Shown piece by piece: positions 44,598-56,039 of a stretch of 64,000 bases of DNA. A program made the translations under genes and the position numbers. Each line of letters starts with the position of its first letter. The first letter of the stretch is position 1. This DNA is from Neoroseomonas lacus (GTDB lineage Bacteria; Pseudomonadota; Alphaproteobacteria; Acetobacterales; Acetobacteraceae), in contig NZ_BMKW01000001.1 of assembly GCF_014644535.1 (NCBI RefSeq), positions 186,001 through 250,000 on the forward strand, in the 5' to 3' direction. A model generated the notes under the pieces. The model ran no database searches. It was not told the origin of the DNA and saw nothing but the letters and a program-made list of their open reading frames with translations.

Positions 44598-45059
44598 TCA
44601 GCTCGGCGGCGCGGCGCGGCGCCACAGCACGGCAAAGCGGTTGCGCCCGTCGTCACGGCTGTAGCGCTGCCACTCGGTCATCTGCATGACCAGGTGAATA
44701 CCCAGTCCACCCACCGTGCGTTCCTCGACCGACGCATCCGTATCGGGCACCGGCCGGGCGGTCGGGTCGAAGGGGATGCCGTCATCCTCGGTCGCGAGTT
44801 CCACCTCGACGCCATCGTCACGCCGGGTGACCACGGTCGAGACGGTGAAAATGCCCGGCACCGCTCCGGCAGGCCAGGCATAGCGCGCCACATTCGTCAC
44901 CATCTCCTCGGCAACCACGAGGAAGGCGGCGCAGGCGCCGGGCGTGCAGCCGGCATCGGCCAGCGCCTCCTCAAGCCGTGCCAGCACGGCGGCGATGGCG
45001 GCATCGTCCCGCGCACAGGCGAAGTCGAGCCTGCGCGTCGCTGTCTCGTCACTGGTCAC
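44598..45059 (-). CDS. RsbW-like ATP-binding anti-sigma/serine kinase protein
   Basis: This 153-residue protein has a GHKL ATPase fold: the N box VVAEEMVTNVARYAW (Asn56), the G1 box ATEDDGIPFDP and the G2 box TVGGLGIHLVMQM. These fit HATPase_c_2 proteins such as RsbW and SpoIIAB, which phosphorylate a STAS antagonist and bind a sigma factor or other target. The GTG start at 45059 has GAGG upstream, and the STAS gene ends 11 bases earlier, so the pair is coexpressed. No sigma factor gene is seen nearby, so the target may be another protein. Confidence 0.85.
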   Translation of the reverse strand: MTSDETATRRLDFACARDDAAIAAVLARLEEALADAGCTPGACAAFLVVAEEMVTNVARYAWPAGAVPGIFTVSTVVTRRDDGVEVELATEDDGIPFDPTARPVPDTDASVEERTVGGLGIHLVMQMTEWQRYSRDDGRNRFAVLWRRAAPPS

Positions 45060-45069
45060 GCCGGGCGCC

Positions 45070-45408
45070 TCAGGCGCCGATGAGGCGGCGGGCGTCTTCC
45101 TCATCGGCGCCGATCGACAGCACCTTCGAGAAGCCGGAGATGTCGAACACCTCCTGCACCGCCGCCGGCAGCCCGAACAGCGCGAGCCGGCCATCCGAGG
45201 CCTTGGCCCGCTTCGCCGCCATCAGCACGACGCGCAAGCCGGCCGAGGAAACATAGGCAACATCGCGCATATCGAGGATGACGCGCGGCGCCGGCCCGGC
45301 GAAGCTGCCGAGGATCGCACCCTCCGCCTTGACGGTCGCGTTGTTGTCGAGCCGGCCCTTCAGCCGATGCAGCACAACGCCGTCGGTCGCCTGGGTATAG
45401 ATGTCCAT
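45070..45408 (-). CDS. STAS domain anti-sigma factor antagonist
   Basis: This 112-residue STAS protein has the core ILDMRDVAYVSSAGLRVVL, where Ser55 (in SSAG) is the expected phosphorylation site of RsbV/SpoIIAA-type antagonists. GGAAGGGA lies before the ATG. It is next to an RsbW-like kinase gene downstream and a PP2C phosphatase gene 115 bases upstream. Together they form the classic partner-switching set: kinase, antagonist, phosphatase. Confidence 0.9.
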   Translation of the reverse strand: MDIYTQATDGVVLHRLKGRLDNNATVKAEGAILGSFAGPAPRVILDMRDVAYVSSAGLRVVLMAAKRAKASDGRLALFGLPAAVQEVFDISGFSKVLSIGADEEDARRLIGA

Positions 45409-45523
45409 CGCGATGGTCCCTTCCGGATGAGGTCGCGTTCGGTGGAATCATCCGAACGCGTGAGGATGTTAGCCAAACAATGCCCGGGGCAGGCTGTGCG
45501 CATGCTTGTGAACGCGGCCTGCG

Positions 45524-47587
45524 CTAATCGCCTGCGACGGCCACCACCTCGCCGGCATAGGCGAGGCAGAGCAGTGTGATGTCGTCGGCCTGCGGGCAGC
45601 CTTCGGCGAAGTCGTTCACCACCGCGGCGATGTGGCCGACCAGCTGGGCGGGGTCCGATCCCGCAGCGGCGATCAGCGCGGCTGTCAGGCGGTCGTCGCC
45701 GAACAGGCTGCCATCGGCACGGTCGGCCTCGGTGACGCCATCGGTGAACAGCACCAGCGTCTCGCCCGGCGTGAGCCGCGTCTCGCGGTCGTCGAAAATG
45801 AAATCCTCGACGACGCCGAGCGCGATGCCATCCGCCCCGCCCAGCGCGCGCTGGCAGGCGGAGGCGCCGACCACGCGCGGCGGGTTGTGACCCGCATTGG
45901 CGTAGCGCAGATGGCCGCTCTCAGGATCGAGGATGGCGACGAAGGCGGTGGCGAACATCATCGTCGGGTTGTCGGCGGCGAGCGCCGAATTGGCCTGGAA
46001 CAGCGCCTCGGCCGGGCTCGCCCCGCGCGACATCGCCGCGCGCAACAGGCTACGCGTCATGGCGACGAAGATCGCCGCGGCGACGCCCTTGCCGGAAGCA
46101 TCGCCCACCATCACGGCGAGACCGCCATCGGGCAGCCGCATCACGTCGTAGAAGTCGCCGCCCACTTCCTTGGCCGGCCACATCGCCGCGTGCATCTCGA
46201 AGGACGAGGAAACGGGGAAGACCGAGGGCAGGCTTTCCAGTTGCAGCCGGCGCGCGACTTGAAGCTCCTGCACCATGCGTTCGAGCAGCACGCGCTGGTC
46301 CAGCGCCTGGCGCACTGTGTCGAGGTCGCGCGTGCGCTCGGTCAGCAGGGCCTCGAGCTTGGTATGGCGGTTCAGCACGCTCTCGACCATGCTCTGGAAC
46401 GCCTCGGCGAGGCCGGCGCCGCCCTGCCCCTCGCCCTGTTCGAGGCGGCGCAGCACCGCCGTCACCGCCGCGCGTTCCGAGGCTTCGAACACCTCCGCGA
46501 GGCGCGTCAGTTCACCGCCGATCAGCGCGAGGTGACGGCGGCGGGCCAGGCGGTCGCGCGTCTCCATCCGGTCGAGCGCGAGGCCGCTGCTGCGCAGCAC
46601 GCCGAGGGCACGGGCGATCTGGCCGATCTCGTCGTCGCGTTCATCGACCGATGCGCTGGCCAGCCGGTCACCGCCGGCGATGGCGCGCAGCACCCCGGCG
46701 AGGTCGGTCAGCGGCTCCAGCGCCGCACGCAGCATGCGGTACAGCAGGATGCCGGCGGTCAGGATCACCACCACCAGCACCAGGCCGGCGACCAACAGCA
46801 CCACCTCATACCGCTGCGCCGATTGCGACACATCCTGCAGCACGAAGAGCCGCGCCACCGGCACGCCGCTGCTGCCCATCAGCATGGTGGGCACGATCTG
46901 CATCCAGCGGCCGTCATGGCGGAAGCTGACCGGCATGGCGGCATCGCGCGCGCCGGCCGCCTCGATGCTGTGCCAGGCGCTCGCCCCCTGCGGCAGCAAT
47001 GGACGGCCGGCGAGGTCGGCGACCAGCGCCTGCCCCCCCAGCGCGGCACCGATCACCTCCAGCGTCGGCGCGAAGGCGGCCCCGGCGGCGACCACCTGTG
47101 GCCCCTGCCCGCGCGCGAAGGCCACCAGATGCAGCCCACCGCCATCGGGTATCGGCTCGATACCGCTGTCCCCCGTGCCGGGCTGGTATTCGCGCAGCAC
47201 CGCGGCGGTGTCGATCATGCCTTCGACGGCATGTTCGGCGGGCTGGGCGAGCAACACGCGGCCACCGCGCGCGATCACTTCGATGCGCTCGATAGGCGCC
47301 GCACCCTCGCGCAACACCTCCAGCCGCGCCCGGGCGGCGGGGATGTCGCCCCGCTCGAGTTCCTGCGCCAAGGCGGCATCGGTGGCGATGCGCTCTACCG
47401 CCTCGGTCAGCGGCCGCGCGGCGCGCAGCATCTCGCGCGAAACGACGGCGACCTGGCGCGCGACGGTGAGCTCGCCGACGCGCCCGTCGCGTTCCTGCAA
47501 CAGCAGCCAGGCCGGGACGGCGACGGCCGCGGCGACGATCGGGACAATGGCGGCGGCGAGCGCGATGATGCGGGTGCGGAGCAGCAT
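45524..47587 (-). CDS. Transmembrane HAMP/PP2C (SpoIIE-type) serine phosphatase
   Basis: This 687-residue protein has an N-terminal membrane segment (about residues 6-28), an extracytoplasmic sensor region (about 30-310), a second membrane segment (VVLLVAGLVLVVVILTAGIL), a HAMP domain and a coiled coil. It ends in a PP2C SpoIIE-like phosphatase with VGGDFYDVMRLPDGGLAVM, GDASGKGV and a late ADDITLL metal-ligand Asp. It should dephosphorylate the STAS antagonist in response to an envelope signal. It starts seven bases after the substrate-binding protein gene, so the sensor region may interact with that protein. Confidence 0.92.
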   Translation of the reverse strand: MLLRTRIIALAAAIVPIVAAAVAVPAWLLLQERDGRVGELTVARQVAVVSREMLRAARPLTEAVERIATDAALAQELERGDIPAARARLEVLREGAAPIERIEVIARGGRVLLAQPAEHAVEGMIDTAAVLREYQPGTGDSGIEPIPDGGGLHLVAFARGQGPQVVAAGAAFAPTLEVIGAALGGQALVADLAGRPLLPQGASAWHSIEAAGARDAAMPVSFRHDGRWMQIVPTMLMGSSGVPVARLFVLQDVSQSAQRYEVVLLVAGLVLVVVILTAGILLYRMLRAALEPLTDLAGVLRAIAGGDRLASASVDERDDEIGQIARALGVLRSSGLALDRMETRDRLARRRHLALIGGELTRLAEVFEASERAAVTAVLRRLEQGEGQGGAGLAEAFQSMVESVLNRHTKLEALLTERTRDLDTVRQALDQRVLLERMVQELQVARRLQLESLPSVFPVSSSFEMHAAMWPAKEVGGDFYDVMRLPDGGLAVMVGDASGKGVAAAIFVAMTRSLLRAAMSRGASPAEALFQANSALAADNPTMMFATAFVAILDPESGHLRYANAGHNPPRVVGASACQRALGGADGIALGVVEDFIFDDRETRLTPGETLVLFTDGVTEADRADGSLFGDDRLTAALIAAAGSDPAQLVGHIAAVVNDFAEGCPQADDITLLCLAYAGEVVAVAGD

Positions 47588-47594
47588 GATGCGT

Positions 47595-48581
47595 CTAGAC
47601 CGCCTCGGCGATGCGCAGGAGTTCGACCGGCGGATAGGCGCGCAGCCGCCGCGCCGTTTCCATGCGCACGAGATAGGAGAAGCGTGACAGCGTCTCGACC
47701 GGGATCGCCGCCGGCGACACGCCGCCGAACAGGATCTGCTCCGCCTTGAAGCCGGTGAAGGCGCCGACGCTGTAGTAGCGGCTGACCAGCCCGGCCAGCC
47801 CATCGGCGAAGGCGACGAAACGCTCCGACGCGGCGAAGCTCGGCAGGCCCTCCTGCAGGGCGGCGGCGGTCAGCACGGCGCGATGTTCGTTGAGGAAGGT
47901 GTCGGGCGGGATGTAGAGCCATTCCGCGCCGGCCTCGCGCGCCGCGGTCACCAGCCCCGGAATGGCGTCGGGTTGCGGGCGGCCATCGGCCAGCGGCACC
48001 GGGAGGCTGTGCAGCACGGCACCGCGCGTGGCGAGCTGTTCGGCCATCTCCTCCAGCGTCACAATCGAGTTGCGCTCGCGCGGGTTGAACAGCGCAGCGG
48101 CGCGTTGGAAGGGCCGATAGGATTCCATCGCGCGCAGCTGCACCGCGACCGGGGCGATGTATTCGGTGCCGGTCACCGGCCGGCCCGGCGCGGCGCGGCT
48201 GCGCACGACGCGATTGCGCACCGGGTCGGTAACGATGTTGAAGACGACAGGCATGCCGTTCAGATGCCGCGCCGGGTCATGCGCATCCCACGGCCCGAGC
48301 GCCGCCATGGTCAGCGTCGTGCCCCACAGGTAAACGAGGTCCGGCCGCATCGCCTGCGCCTGCCGCACCATGGCCGGCACGCGGGAGAGGTCCTCCTCGG
48401 CGTTACTCACCACCAATTCGACATCGAGCCGGCGTGCGGCGAAGTAATCGCGGAAGCCGTCGCAGGCTTCCTCCCAGCCGCGGAACAGCATCATCAGGAT
48501 ACGCGGGCGGCGCTGGGCGCGCGCGACAGCCGGCGCAACGAGCCCAAGCGCGGCGGCGGCGACGAGCGGACGACGACGCAT
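47595..48581 (-). CDS. TrpX/DUF534-type ABC substrate-binding protein (orphan)
   Basis: This 328-residue protein has a signal peptide (about residues 1-22) and the ABC_sub_bind (PF04392) features: MVRQAQAMRPDLVYLWGTT, VFNIVTDPVRNRVV and ALFNPRERNSIVTLEEMAE. It ends MAARRL-like. Known relatives bind tryptophan, other amino acids or small organics. There is no permease or ATPase partner. Instead it is coupled to the MFS fusion gene upstream (TGATG) and to the phosphatase gene downstream, so it probably feeds a ligand signal to the two-segment sensor proteins. Confidence 0.82.
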   Translation of the reverse strand: MRRRPLVAAAALGLVAPAVARAQRRPRILMMLFRGWEEACDGFRDYFAARRLDVELVVSNAEEDLSRVPAMVRQAQAMRPDLVYLWGTTLTMAALGPWDAHDPARHLNGMPVVFNIVTDPVRNRVVRSRAAPGRPVTGTEYIAPVAVQLRAMESYRPFQRAAALFNPRERNSIVTLEEMAEQLATRGAVLHSLPVPLADGRPQPDAIPGLVTAAREAGAEWLYIPPDTFLNEHRAVLTAAALQEGLPSFAASERFVAFADGLAGLVSRYYSVGAFTGFKAEQILFGGVSPAAIPVETLSRFSYLVRMETARRLRAYPPVELLRIAEAV

Positions 48582-50650
48582 CACGGCGCACTCCCCATGG
48601 CGGCCGCGCGTCGGCCGGCCTGCTGCACCACGGCGTAGGCCAGGCCTGCCAGCGCCGTCACCGCGCCGAGCACGCCCATCGCCCAGACGGTATCGCCGCG
48701 CGTCAACAGCCATGCGGCGGCGAAAGGCCCGATCACGCTGCCGATGCGCTCGCCCAGCCGCAGGAAGGAGAGCAGCAATGGCGTCGACCCGCTGCCCGTC
48801 GCCGCCGCGGCCGCGAGCATCGGCGCCGAGGCGAGGCCCTGCGCCGCACCGGTCACCGCGATGGCGATGGGCAGCGCCACGGCCTCCGGCAGGATGGGGA
48901 TCATCAGCAGCGCCGCGCCATTCAGCAGCGCACCACCCCAGATCAGCCCGCCACCGATGCGCACGCGGTCGGCCAGCCAACCGCCCAGCGTGATGGCCGG
49001 CAGCATGCACAGCCCGTACAGCATGACGTTGCGCCCGATCGCCGCCTGACTCTCACCCAGGTCGCGCAGCGCGAGCGGCGCGAGGTAGAAGATCACGCCG
49101 GCCAGCACCACCTTCGCCGGCACCGCGGCGAGCAGCAGCAGCGCCGTGAAACGCGCATTGCCGAAGGCGGCACGCGCGCCAGCGAGCACGCTCTCGGCGG
49201 CCGCCCCCGCCTCGGCGAGGCCGCGCGGGATAGCCCGCAGCGCCACCAGCATCACCACGACCACCAGCGCCACCGAGGCCACGAATGTCGCCGCATAGCC
49301 GAGCCGGTCGGCGATCACCGCGCCGATCGCGGTGCCGCAGACCGCGCCGCTCATTACCGCGCCGGTGAAACCGCCCAGCGAGCGCGCCAGCCGTCCCTGC
49401 CGCGCGGCGAGCGCCATCTGCGCCTGGCAGGCGATGGTCAGCACCGCATAGCCGATGCCACACAGCACGCGCGCGGCGGCGAAGGGCAGCAACTCCGTGG
49501 CGAGCGCCGCGCCCAGATAGCCGAGCGCCGCGAGGCCGCCACCGATCAGGATCGCCCCACGCGGCCCGCGCCGCGCCGTGAGCCGCCCGCCATAGGGCGT
49601 GGCCAGCGCCACGGCGGCGACGAAGGCGGAGATCGGCAGCGCTGCCAGCAGGTCGGGCGAAAGGAAGGGCGGTGCGCCGCGCGCCAGATCCCGACCGAGC
49701 AGCGGGATGAAGGAGGTGGAAAGCTGCTCGGCGACGACGAAGAGGAAGAGCGGCAGCCTTGCCGCGCTCGCACTGCCCGCCAGCGGTTCCGGGACCGCGC
49801 CGCCGTCGCGAAAGCGCAGCCGGTCGTGCAGGCCGTCGAGCACCGCGGCAGCCTCCCTTGCCGCCCGGCCACCCGCCGAAGCTGCCTCCGCCGCCAGCCA
49901 TTCGAGATAGGCCCAGCGGTCACCAAGCCGCCGCACCAGCGCGTTCACCGCGCGCGCCACGGCGCCGGCCTCATCCGTCGCGCCGGTAACGGCCTGCGCG
50001 GTGCAATCGCCGGCACTGAGCCGGCGCGCCATGCGCTCGATCATCGAGAGCGGCCCGATCACCGTGCGGTCGATGACGAAGCGCAGCAGTTCCATCGCCA
50101 GCATCACCGCGACCAGCAGCACGATCACGAGGTCCCAGCTTGTATCCTCGATGACGCCATCGACCGCGGCGCGGCTGACGCCGACCAGCAACCAGCCCTG
50201 CGGCCGACCGCCCGGGGCTGCGACGGCCACCGCCGTCTCGTAGATGCCGGGCAAGGCGCGGCGCAGCATCCCATCGCCGGGCAGCACCGCCGGCGGCACC
50301 AAGGGCTCGAAGCTGGCGGCGGCCGGCCCGGCGGTGGCGCGCGGCTGGCCCGCCAGGTCGGTCAGCACCAGATAGGCGACCGCCGGCTGGCTCGCCGCCA
50401 TGTCCGCCAGGTATTCGCTCGTACCGACCAACTCGTCGAAGGGAATGCCGAGGCCGAGCGCGCGCTCGAGTGGGTTGGCGACCACGACGCCGATCACCGC
50501 CGCCTCGCGCTCGATCGCCGGGCGCACTTCGCGGTCGAAGGCGCCGAGAGCCGCGAAGGAGACCGCGACCACCGTGCCCAGCAGCACCAGCGCCGCGATG
50601 ATGGACAGGTTGCGCACCAGGCGGCGGACGATGTGCTCGGTGCTGATCAT
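48581..50650 (-). CDS. Sensor-HAMP-MFS fusion protein
   Basis: This 689-residue protein joins two modules that are usually separate. Residues 1-250 are a sensor: a membrane segment (IIAALVLLGTVVAVSFAAL), an extracytoplasmic domain, a second membrane segment (about 172-192) and a HAMP-like helix pair (PLSMIERMARRLSAGD). Residues about 300-680 are a complete MFS transporter of about 12 segments, including TPYGGRLTARRGPRGAI (the loop 2-3 motif) and RVLCGIGYAVL. Both ends overlap neighbours (ATGA, TGATG). It may sense and move one compound. I know of no named family with this layout. Confidence 0.82.
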   Translation of the reverse strand: MISTEHIVRRLVRNLSIIAALVLLGTVVAVSFAALGAFDREVRPAIEREAAVIGVVVANPLERALGLGIPFDELVGTSEYLADMAASQPAVAYLVLTDLAGQPRATAGPAAASFEPLVPPAVLPGDGMLRRALPGIYETAVAVAAPGGRPQGWLLVGVSRAAVDGVIEDTSWDLVIVLLVAVMLAMELLRFVIDRTVIGPLSMIERMARRLSAGDCTAQAVTGATDEAGAVARAVNALVRRLGDRWAYLEWLAAEAASAGGRAAREAAAVLDGLHDRLRFRDGGAVPEPLAGSASAARLPLFLFVVAEQLSTSFIPLLGRDLARGAPPFLSPDLLAALPISAFVAAVALATPYGGRLTARRGPRGAILIGGGLAALGYLGAALATELLPFAAARVLCGIGYAVLTIACQAQMALAARQGRLARSLGGFTGAVMSGAVCGTAIGAVIADRLGYAATFVASVALVVVVMLVALRAIPRGLAEAGAAAESVLAGARAAFGNARFTALLLLAAVPAKVVLAGVIFYLAPLALRDLGESQAAIGRNVMLYGLCMLPAITLGGWLADRVRIGGGLIWGGALLNGAALLMIPILPEAVALPIAIAVTGAAQGLASAPMLAAAAATGSGSTPLLLSFLRLGERIGSVIGPFAAAWLLTRGDTVWAMGVLGAVTALAGLAYAVVQQAGRRAAAMGSAP

Positions 50651-51402
50651 GCGTTGCGTTCCGGGGCGCGGGCGGCGATGGCTTCAAGCTGGCGCTCGGC
50701 ATCGTCCAGCGTTGCGCCGTGGCGATGGATGGCCTCCCGCAGGCCTTGCAGCATCGCCTCCTCCGTCGCGGGTGCACCGCCGCCTGCGAGCAGCCCGGCC
50801 AATTGCGCGAAGAGCGCGCGCGTCGGCCGTGCCACCAGGAAGATGGCGAGCCAGGCGAGCGGCAGGCCGATCGCCAACGCGGTTAATCCGGGCCCGGCCA
50901 TGGCGAGCGCGACCGCCGTCAGCCGGTCGGCAATGCCCGCCCGGCCATAGCCGAGCAGCAGGCTGCCTTCCCGCTGGCCGAAGCTGTTGACGACGGGCAT
51001 GCCGATCCAGTCGAGCCCGCCGAACCGCGCGAGGCGCCGCGTGGTGCCCGCCGGCAGCAGCGCAGGGGCGGCGGCATCGCCGATGCGCACGCGTTCGGTG
51101 TCGAACAGCACGCGCCCGCCGGCATCGGCCACGGTAATGCGTTGCAGGTCCACATCGCGCCCGAAGGCACGGTCGAGTAGCGACTGCGCCCCCGGCACGT
51201 CGGCCAGCCGCACACCGATATTCATCCCGCGTTCGAAGGTATCGACGAGGTCGGCGCCGATGGTGGTGAACATGCGCTGATGCTGGATCAGGAGTAGACG
51301 CTCGAACTTCAGGTAGTTGAGCGCGGTGACCAAGGTGCAGGCGAGTACGGTCAGCGCCGTCAGCAGCAGGCCGATGCGGGTGGCGAAGGACGACCCCGTC
51401 AT
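50647..51402 (-). CDS. Two-TM sensor-like protein without output domain
   Basis: This 251-residue protein has a membrane segment (about residues 9-29), an extracytoplasmic region (about 30-165, with GGRVLFDTERVRIGD and DWIGMPVVNSFGQREGSLLL, like dCache/CHASE-type sensors), a second segment (about 170-192) and a short cytoplasmic helical tail. There is no kinase or cyclase output. Its N-terminal layout parallels the MFS fusion that follows with a four-base overlap, so it may be a sensory partner of that protein. Confidence 0.7.
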   Translation of the reverse strand: MTGSSFATRIGLLLTALTVLACTLVTALNYLKFERLLLIQHQRMFTTIGADLVDTFERGMNIGVRLADVPGAQSLLDRAFGRDVDLQRITVADAGGRVLFDTERVRIGDAAAPALLPAGTTRRLARFGGLDWIGMPVVNSFGQREGSLLLGYGRAGIADRLTAVALAMAGPGLTALAIGLPLAWLAIFLVARPTRALFAQLAGLLAGGGAPATEEAMLQGLREAIHRHGATLDDAERQLEAIAARAPERNA

Positions 51403-52205
51403 GCCGGGACGGCGCTGCACAGGGTTGGTGGCAGCAGCGCTTCCGCCAGCAGCCCGAGATAGTCGACCGCCGAGACCAGCGGCATGGCGCCGCGTTCGAA
51501 CGCATCGAAGGCGGTCGCGTCGGGCATGCGGAAATACTGGCCGCCGGCGGGCTGCCCATGGCCGCGCGGCGGATGCCCGGCCGCCGCCGCGCGCACCGCG
51601 GCGGCAGCGAGCGTCGCACCGCCGCGATACAGCTCGGCGATGTGCCACAGCAGGCAGCGCTGATCGTCGCGCGCCACGCTGTGCTCGGCGATCAGCGGGC
51701 CGGTGTCGATGCCGGCATCGACGATGTGCAGGCTCGATGCAAGGCGCGATTCACCCAGCGCCGCCTGCCAGAAGGGCGCGAACAGGCCGCGATAGCGCGG
51801 CAGCGGACCGGGATGGACATTGAGGATGCCCATCGGCACCGCATCGATGACGCGCTGGGGGAAGATCAGGCTGAAGCGCATCGACACCACCATGTCCGGG
51901 CAGCGGTCGAGCAGGCATCGCGCGCCGCCGTCGCGGCGCAGGTCGGGCAGCGGCAGCCAGGATTCCGGGCGCAGCGATTCCGGCGCGCCCGCCCATTCGC
52001 CCATCGTCGCCGGATGCAGCGTGCCGATCGGGAATTCGCGCTCCAGCGCGCTCAGCAGGCGCAGGCCCGGCACGCTGTCCTCGGCCGGGCGGACCTTGGT
52101 GCTGCAGAAGACGTCGACCTCCGCCGCATCGCCCAGTTCGCCGAGAAAGCGGCGCGCGGCGATGACGCCGAAAATGTCGCGCTTCACGCAGAGGGCAACA
52201 CGCAT
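51399..52205 (-). CDS. Formyltransferase family protein
   Basis: This 268-residue protein contains the formyltransferase signature NVHPGPLPRYRG, which supplies the catalytic Asn and His, and the Asp region DAGIDTGPLI. The fold resembles methionyl-tRNA formyltransferase and sugar N-formyltransferases, but it is shorter than Fmt and lacks a clear C-terminal tRNA domain. It is the first gene of the signalling operon, with a four-base overlap to the sensor gene. A formylated small molecule, modified sugar or protein could be the product; the substrate is unknown. Confidence 0.82.
   Translation of the reverse strand: MRVALCVKRDIFGVIAARRFLGELGDAAEVDVFCSTKVRPAEDSVPGLRLLSALEREFPIGTLHPATMGEWAGAPESLRPESWLPLPDLRRDGGARCLLDRCPDMVVSMRFSLIFPQRVIDAVPMGILNVHPGPLPRYRGLFAPFWQAALGESRLASSLHIVDAGIDTGPLIAEHSVARDDQRCLLWHIAELYRGGATLAAAAVRAAAAGHPPRGHGQPAGGQYFRMPDATAFDAFERGAMPLVSAVDYLGLLAEALLPPTLCSAVPA

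Positions 52206-54102: not shown

Positions 54103-56039
<1,937 letters not shown>

Follow-up and report, generated by a model that had tools for sequence, protein, structure and literature searches.

The 64,000-nucleotide stretch analysed here (the window), positions 186,001 to 250,000 of contig NZ_BMKW01000001.1 of Neoroseomonas lacus, contains seven minus-strand genes at 44598–52205 which join a partner-switching circuit to a binding protein, a transporter and an enzyme. In order of transcription, as read from the window sequence, they encode a formyltransferase, a sensor with two transmembrane stretches (two-TM sensor), a sensor-HAMP-MFS fusion, a periplasmic binding protein, a HAMP-PP2C phosphatase, a STAS protein and a kinase (Table 1). 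The initial annotation had described a compact minus-strand operon with short overlaps, and direct reading of the junctions confirms these: ATGA, ATGA and TGATG at the first three, followed by a gap of 7 nucleotides (nt) before the phosphatase gene. The STAS/kinase pair stands apart, 115 nt from the phosphatase gene; in relatives it is missed by searches more often than any other part. An ATG start of the kinase gene at 45104 gives a 35-nt overlap with the STAS gene, and the GTG at 45059 lies 10 nt past the STAS stop codon. The GTG agrees better with homologous sequences and is the likely start.

Table 1. Genes of the operon and a possible companion gene; coordinates are those of the window.
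Feature	Coordinates	Strand	Basis
Formyltransferase, Formyl_trans_N type, 268 aa	51399..52205	-	Pfam, fold, residues N129, H131, D167
Two-TM periplasmic sensor without output domain, 251 aa	50647..51402	-	Hydrophobic stretches; no Pfam family
Sensor-HAMP-MFS fusion, 689 aa: periplasmic sensor, HAMP, DHA1-like MFS domain	48581..50650	-	Pfam, AlphaFold, Foldseek
Periplasmic substrate-binding protein, PF04392 superfamily, 328 aa	47595..48581	-	Pfam 1.8e-17 (ABC_sub_bind), PDB relatives
Membrane sensor-HAMP-PP2C (SpoIIE) phosphatase, 687 aa	45524..47587	-	Pfam SpoIIE 6.5e-51, motif patterns
STAS antagonist, 112 aa, serines S54/S55	45070..45408	-	TIGR00377 above cut-off
RsbW-like kinase, likely GTG start 45059 (ATG 45104 also possible)	44598..45059	-	HATPase_c_2 5e-14
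Possible companion, not core: divergent NCS2 (xanthine-type) permease, C-terminal tail of about 135 aa	52349..54037	+	Pfam/NCBIfam

The product of the first gene belongs to the Formyl_trans_N superfamily by family match (Pfam, 1.4e-13), fold and residues. In an alignment of 20 sequences (the window and 19 loci) N129, H131 and D167 do not vary, and their spacing fits that of the PurN/Fmt catalytic residues. A Foldseek search with the AlphaFold model (predicted local distance difference test, pLDDT, 92.7) retrieved the 10-FTHFDH hydrolase domain, ArnA, Fmt and WbkC with query template modelling (TM) scores of 0.52–0.64; the nearest solved structures include sugar N-formyltransferases and Fmt. 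The protein stays below every curated equivalog cut-off (Fmt, PurN, ArnA, PurU; the best is Fmt with 46.7 versus 201.5 bits).

The two-TM sensor has hydrophobic stretches at residues 10–28 and 161–179 and no Pfam family. It cross-matches the MFS-fusion gene of locus L031 in tblastn (E 6e-7) and thus appears to be related to the N-terminal sensor of the fusion. The fusion protein itself shows Pfam MFS_1 and a HAMP match slightly under the cut-off. In its AlphaFold model (pLDDT 84.3) the MFS half is nearest in fold to VMAT2, followed by DHA1 drug/H+ antiporters, with MdfA and NorA among the matches. What had been listed as a transporter is therefore more precisely an MFS domain fused to a sensor. 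The PDB relatives of the binding protein, 3lkv, 6hni and 3lft, are PF04392/TrpX binding proteins. The original label ‘TrpX-type’ is justified at superfamily level and not at equivalog level, the score against NF041285 being 64.7 bits, far under the cut-off of 390. The superfamily is thus shared with these proteins, but no ABC permease or ATPase is found among the seven genes. The sensing front end first proposed, made up of binding protein and membrane sensors, is supported in this form.

While this front end is unusual, the switch proteins are ordinary. The phosphatase matches Pfam SpoIIE, with a HAMP match slightly under the cut-off, and scores 88.7 bits against the SiaA equivalog NF038263, under the cut-off of 700. 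The phosphatase of the window and those of 18 of 22 loci show all four motif patterns tested; L055, L056 and L057 each miss one, and L053, where a contig end cuts the gene, shows none. The serines S54 and S55 of the STAS protein are invariant in 16 aligned sequences (window and 15 loci), as are E67, N71, D107, G109 and GGLG 132–135 of the kinase in 17 (window and 16 loci); locus L048 was omitted from two of the sequence alignments (A5, A7). Among PDB sequences, RsbW alone is related to the kinase profile at E≤0.001. The complete set of RsbU/RsbV/RsbW type, recognized at the outset, is thus encoded together as PP2C phosphatase, STAS protein and GHKL kinase with intact key residues. In agreement with the first reading, Pfam detected no sigma factor in the operon or in those neighbours within the window that were searched with it.

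A search with the formyltransferase in 99 genomes, the window's own included, gave close homologues (at least 147 bits) in seven. Five of the other six genomes keep all seven genes in this order; the contig of the sixth breaks off within the third gene. A larger set, the 23 named loci, was obtained by searching a genome collection with an alignment of the binding protein; at least five of these are stretches already met in the formyltransferase search, and L047/L048 and L051/L053 are near-copies. They belong mostly to Roseomonas-group Acetobacteraceae, and also to Tistlia, a Phreatobacter metagenome-assembled genome (MAG) and other MAGs. By profile searches with chosen starts, 13 of the 23 hold all seven genes, 10 of them with exact order and strand. 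The neighbourhood check proposed in the initial annotation thus revealed a conserved seven-gene operon; homologues scattered without conserved order were not observed. As the order is kept across loci at protein identities of about 29–88%, the arrangement is not due to chance.

In 22 of the 23 named loci the two-TM, MFS and binding-protein genes follow one another directly. The link with a formyltransferase, which had not been recognized as a known one, is conserved: the gene lies directly upstream of the sensors in 20 loci, in 15 of which it overlaps the two-TM gene by 1 or 4 nt. The exceptions are L051, which begins inside the two-TM gene, L053, which has a STAS gene there, and L054 (Neoroseomonas terrae). 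L054 lacks the genes for formyltransferase, two-TM sensor and MFS fusion as well as the beginning of the binding-protein gene, so that phosphatase, STAS and kinase genes remain; the gap is either a real deletion or an assembly fault. The phosphatase gene is directly next in 20 of 23 (gap of −1 to 41 nt by chosen starts); about 2.3 kb intervene in L056 and L057, and in L059 the contig ends first. The module is sparse in the family, since the binding protein reaches E≤1e-40 in only 10 of 397 genomes, the window's own included; one of these ten, G020 (233 bits), is much weaker than the others. A plasmid search with the formyltransferase gave partial matches and no record at 80% coverage, and one with the MFS fusion of the window gave no match.

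The core triad of two-TM gene, MFS fusion and binding protein extends across the class and as far as Vibrio. At E≤1e-60, a profile of the fusion matched 21 of 385 genomes of the class including the window's own (20 of 384 others), and in a draw from the phylum 7 of 349, four of them new; some of the matches span only part of the profile. Candidates H50–H52 were not counted as fusions, the match covering the MFS half only (for H51 and H52 as judged from the match listing). Two-TM and binding-protein genes usually adjoin the fusion in these wider loci. The binding-protein gene of L090 and L091 lies on the opposite strand, one enzyme gene away; L105 and L106 encode a single longer fusion without a two-TM gene of its own; that of L129 is several kilobases distant; L067, L095 and L098 are cut by contig ends.

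What stands beside the core varies across relatives: a PP2C switch (mostly SpoIIE), a class III cyclase, a type VI secretion system (T6SS), a type III secretion system (T3SS) or NHLM-type export. L086 encodes, in place of the PP2C phosphatase, a protein with the sensor half of the phosphatase and a class III cyclase end, and its close relative L087 shows the same partial match. L096 encodes a fusion of the kinase domain to a cyclase whose homologues include the TPR-cyclases of L056, L057 and L081 (E 3e-113); in L056 the TPR-cyclase is located beside RsbW. Only L096 was counted as a cyclase–RsbW fusion: N-terminal extensions of RsbW in L092 and L083 gave no cyclase match and look like upstream read-through of the open frame. 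The genome of the window contains a distant TPR-cyclase homologue on another contig (C11:146534-148222; E 8e-15), unlinked to the operon; as a target of the kinase it is a candidate only.

The place of the formyltransferase looks like a general ‘enzyme slot’. Small-molecule enzymes adjoin the same core in 17 of 23 further usable loci outside the formyltransferase clade; this count drops L067, L082, L095, L097 and L098 (contig ends) and leaves uncounted L112, L113 and L115, which are without the MFS triad. Mutually homologous acetyltransferases (GNAT-A) are present in L086, L087, L089, L092, L093, L108 (Azospirillum brasilense), L129 (on the opposite strand) and L130, and L096 was assigned to the group by position. 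GNAT-B is encoded in L081 and L085, a PanB-like enzyme in L083 and L084, and a D-Ala ligase-like enzyme in L090 and L091. Additional enzymes accompany GNAT-A in L086 and L087 (ATP-grasp_4) and in L096 (alanine racemase). L088 has a formyltransferase homologue on the opposite strand together with another GNAT, and Aureimonas L114 has a glutamate-cysteine ligase according to the record annotation. No enzyme was recognized in six loci, L094 and L103–L107, where neighbours were mostly read as open reading frames (ORFs). With Pfam, the L108 protein is over the GNAT cut-off and that of L093 sub-threshold; L089, L092 and L086 match no Pfam family, so their GNAT-A label rests on homology. In a reciprocal test, a GNAT-A homologue at E≤1e-15 was found in 9 of 308 genomes. 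The five strongest (E<1e-35) are all located inside modules, a partly circular result as four of them were rows of the query alignment and only the fifth (G663) was not. The four weaker homologues (E 1e-16 to 1e-32) are from genomes without a fusion match in the class search.

Linkage to secretion genes was analysed with TssC, sought in 38 module genomes with a linkage limit of 25 kb that was set after seeing the data. TssC is encoded in 20, and in seven it is within 25 kb of the module (G689, G097, G1099, G934, G881, G1024 and G1112, the Phreatobacter of L055). In a context-blind sample of 22 of the 24 non-window module genomes (G491 and G064 left out), TssC is present in eight, six of them with linkage to the module, where 0.10 is expected. 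The Poisson P is 1.5e-9 counting genomes and 4e-6 counting four; three linked genomes share one genus. On a tree of 44 fusions, the T6SS label (eight rows) needs four changes, at least three of which are forced by well-supported branches, although several long branches make placements uncertain. In L107 (Vibrio sp. THAF190c) the triad is located immediately before VgrG, TssA and further T6SS-like genes; Hcp-like ORFs there had no NCBIfam match. TssH is nearby in L084, and TssH and TssK in L105. Further TssC searches of G981, G1123, G682 and G663 found none.

Other export systems recur as well. T3SS genes, SctU and SctR, lie beside the module on the same strand in L089; in its congener L130 no genes of this type were seen in the ORF list (families were not run). 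A glycine-rich ORF followed by NHLM-type export genes is located downstream in 7 of the 23 named loci (L040–L042, L044–L046 and L049), as identified by families in L042 and by ORF similarity in the other six. These loci form one group on the fusion tree, inside which L043 and L058 are without the link. NHLP precursor genes are near the module in L047. The glycine-rich ORF of L042 (13604-14764) has a double-glycine leader-like start and no Pfam or NCBIfam match, and those of the other six loci are similar.

Several observations concern the surroundings of such modules. On a Caballeronia sp. NK8 plasmid (L112), PP2C, RsbW and STAS genes directly precede T6SS-like genes (named from ORFs), without an MFS triad. 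On a Nitratidesulfovibrio vulgaris DP4 plasmid (L113), a SpoIIE phosphatase gene is just downstream of an annotated T3SS cluster, two genes from sctU. A DUF3369-HD response regulator was found by Pfam near the T6SS-linked module in L085 (1926-3500), and a Vibrio ORF (L107:11301-12863) looks similar to it by ORF reading. The NCS2 permease likewise borders the operon of L037, L038 and L054, whereas that of L039 is not flanked by it. Tailed NCS2 homologues occur in Thiodictyon (L115), near NHLP precursor, STAS, binding-protein, SpoIIE and ATP-binding (RsbW) genes. The tail is not supported as an RsbW-like domain, profile comparison giving only 1.5% probability. A Ser/Thr kinase is encoded near the operon at window positions 54103-55953, and similar kinases adjoin the module in L039 and L043.

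Partner switches are best known for controlling sigma factors, and to our knowledge extracellular signals sensed by them are rarely known. RsbU/RsbV/RsbW form the SigB circuit of Bacillus, where RsbW holds SigB. The operon of the window has the same three protein types with intact motifs; unlike that circuit it contains no sigma factor, and its transmembrane-sensor phosphatase is encoded with a binding protein. The search of open-access literature, which leaves out most subscription papers, brought up no description of the module.

Two further published systems are comparable. SiaABCD of Pseudomonas aeruginosa likewise has a PP2C phosphatase, SiaA, upstream of a phosphorylated partner (PMC7647112, PMC8457831), whereas the operon of the window has no diguanylate cyclase and has in addition the binding protein, MFS fusion and formyltransferase. 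In Bordetella, the btr locus (BtrU/V/W, BtrO, BtrN, BtrM, alr) controls type III secretion (PMC7498569). Table 3 of that article lists a STAS protein, a kinase, an alanine racemase, an MFS transporter, a SpoIIE phosphatase, an ‘ABC transporter’ and gamma-glutamylcysteine synthetase, with the functions of the MFS, ABC, racemase and synthetase genes given as ‘unknown’. In composition, the operon resembles this locus: SpoIIE phosphatase, kinase, STAS protein, MFS, ABC/binding gene and small-molecule enzyme are united in one locus. The btr system differs in its extracytoplasmic function (ECF) sigma factor and secreted anti-sigma factor, the operon of the window in having a formyltransferase as enzyme and no recognized secretion cluster beside the operon. 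Aureimonas sp. AU20 is intermediate, with SpoIIE, binding protein, glutamate-cysteine ligase and an MFS gene near tssF and tssG; the MFS gene matches the fusion profile including the sensor (E 2.5e-53).

The reading that we prefer, and consider somewhat probable, is that of a ligand-sensing transmembrane partner switch; the operon would then be the branch with a formyltransferase within a wider btr-like module. This is favoured because the operon is conserved, the core is widespread, an enzyme slot recurs, relatives show linkage to T6SS, T3SS and NHLM genes as well as cyclase variants, and the btr part list agrees. For N. lacus we infer the following path. The periplasmic binding protein would capture a small amino-acid-like molecule. 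The loaded binding protein, the transport state of the MFS domain or both may be read by the paired periplasmic sensors of the two-TM protein, the MFS fusion and the phosphatase. HAMP would relay the signal and set the PP2C phosphatase, which would dephosphorylate the STAS protein; the free STAS protein could then bind the kinase and release the partner of the kinase. The enzyme of the operon may make or modify the sensed molecule or a competing one. Release of a target of the RsbW-like protein may be the output, as proposed initially; relatives point to secretion machines or nucleotide cyclases, and post-translational control of one of these would be the likeliest output.

Several points weigh against this interpretation. 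Only 16 of the 23 named loci yielded a STAS gene, and 16 a kinase gene; in L045, L049 and L055 profile searches found neither though the contig continues. The T6SS-embedded loci L103–L107 gave no PP2C, STAS or kinase match, nor was an enzyme recognized there. Within the formyltransferase clade (17 genomes, many of the assemblies being fragmented), TssC is present in 12 and linked only in Phreatobacter (L055). The TssC genes of the window's genome are on contigs C5 and C16 and the module is on C1, so we do not claim T6SS as the direct output of the window. The likeness to btr is a comparison of part lists, not of protein sequences. Moreover, all three Bordetella switch proteins are described as required for type III secretion, none as a negative regulator (PMC7498569), which does not agree with a simple switch in which the kinase holds its target.

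A more specific hypothesis is a novel type of self-sensing, quorum-like system. The enzyme (formyltransferase here; acetyltransferase, ligase, racemase or hydroxymethyltransferase elsewhere) would make an acylated or ligated amino-acid signal, the sensor-MFS protein would export it and report the flux, the binding protein would read it outside, and the partner switch would fire a secretion machine or cyclase. We put this forward tentatively, as a possibility whose weight is slightly lowered because the reciprocal GNAT-A test is partly circular.

Alternatively, the operon might be a sensor-transporter for a nutrient or toxic compound, which the MFS domain moves and the formyltransferase detoxifies or assimilates, the switch regulating only its uptake or use. 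The DHA1 efflux-like fold agrees with this, as do the divergent NCS2 permease recurring at L037, L038 and L054 and a SulP permease directly after the phosphatase in L051. Such a sensor would leave unexplained both the recurrent T6SS, T3SS and NHLM linkage and the alternative cyclase output, and we regard it as unlikely. A switch of the general-stress type, in which the kinase would keep hold of an unlinked sigma or anti-sigma factor in the manner of RsbW and SigB while the neighbours are incidental, would account for the complete phosphatase/STAS/kinase set and for RsbW as sole PDB relative of the kinase profile. The RsbW–cyclase fusion and the secretion neighbours point elsewhere, and no sigma factor is encoded in the operon or by the neighbours searched with Pfam (those of other loci were mostly read as ORFs), which makes this reading quite improbable. 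Equally doubtful is a merely co-expressed formyltransferase acting on a protein or sugar for the cell surface: the nearest solved structures would allow it, but no sugar-nucleotide gene is among the seven, and in other lineages unrelated small-molecule enzymes accompany this core.

Under the favoured interpretation, a ligand-sensing partner switch within a btr-like module, the significance lies in the recurrent coupling of a partner switch to a binding protein, a sensor-transporter fusion and a small-molecule enzyme. If it is correct, the trigger of such secretion systems would become a tractable chemical question, that of the product of the enzyme and the ligand of the binding protein. The module also suggests a hypothesis, open to testing, on the btr genes of ‘unknown’ function, and self-sensing logic, if true, would account for the MFS, ABC, racemase and ligase genes of the Bordetella locus that have no assigned role.

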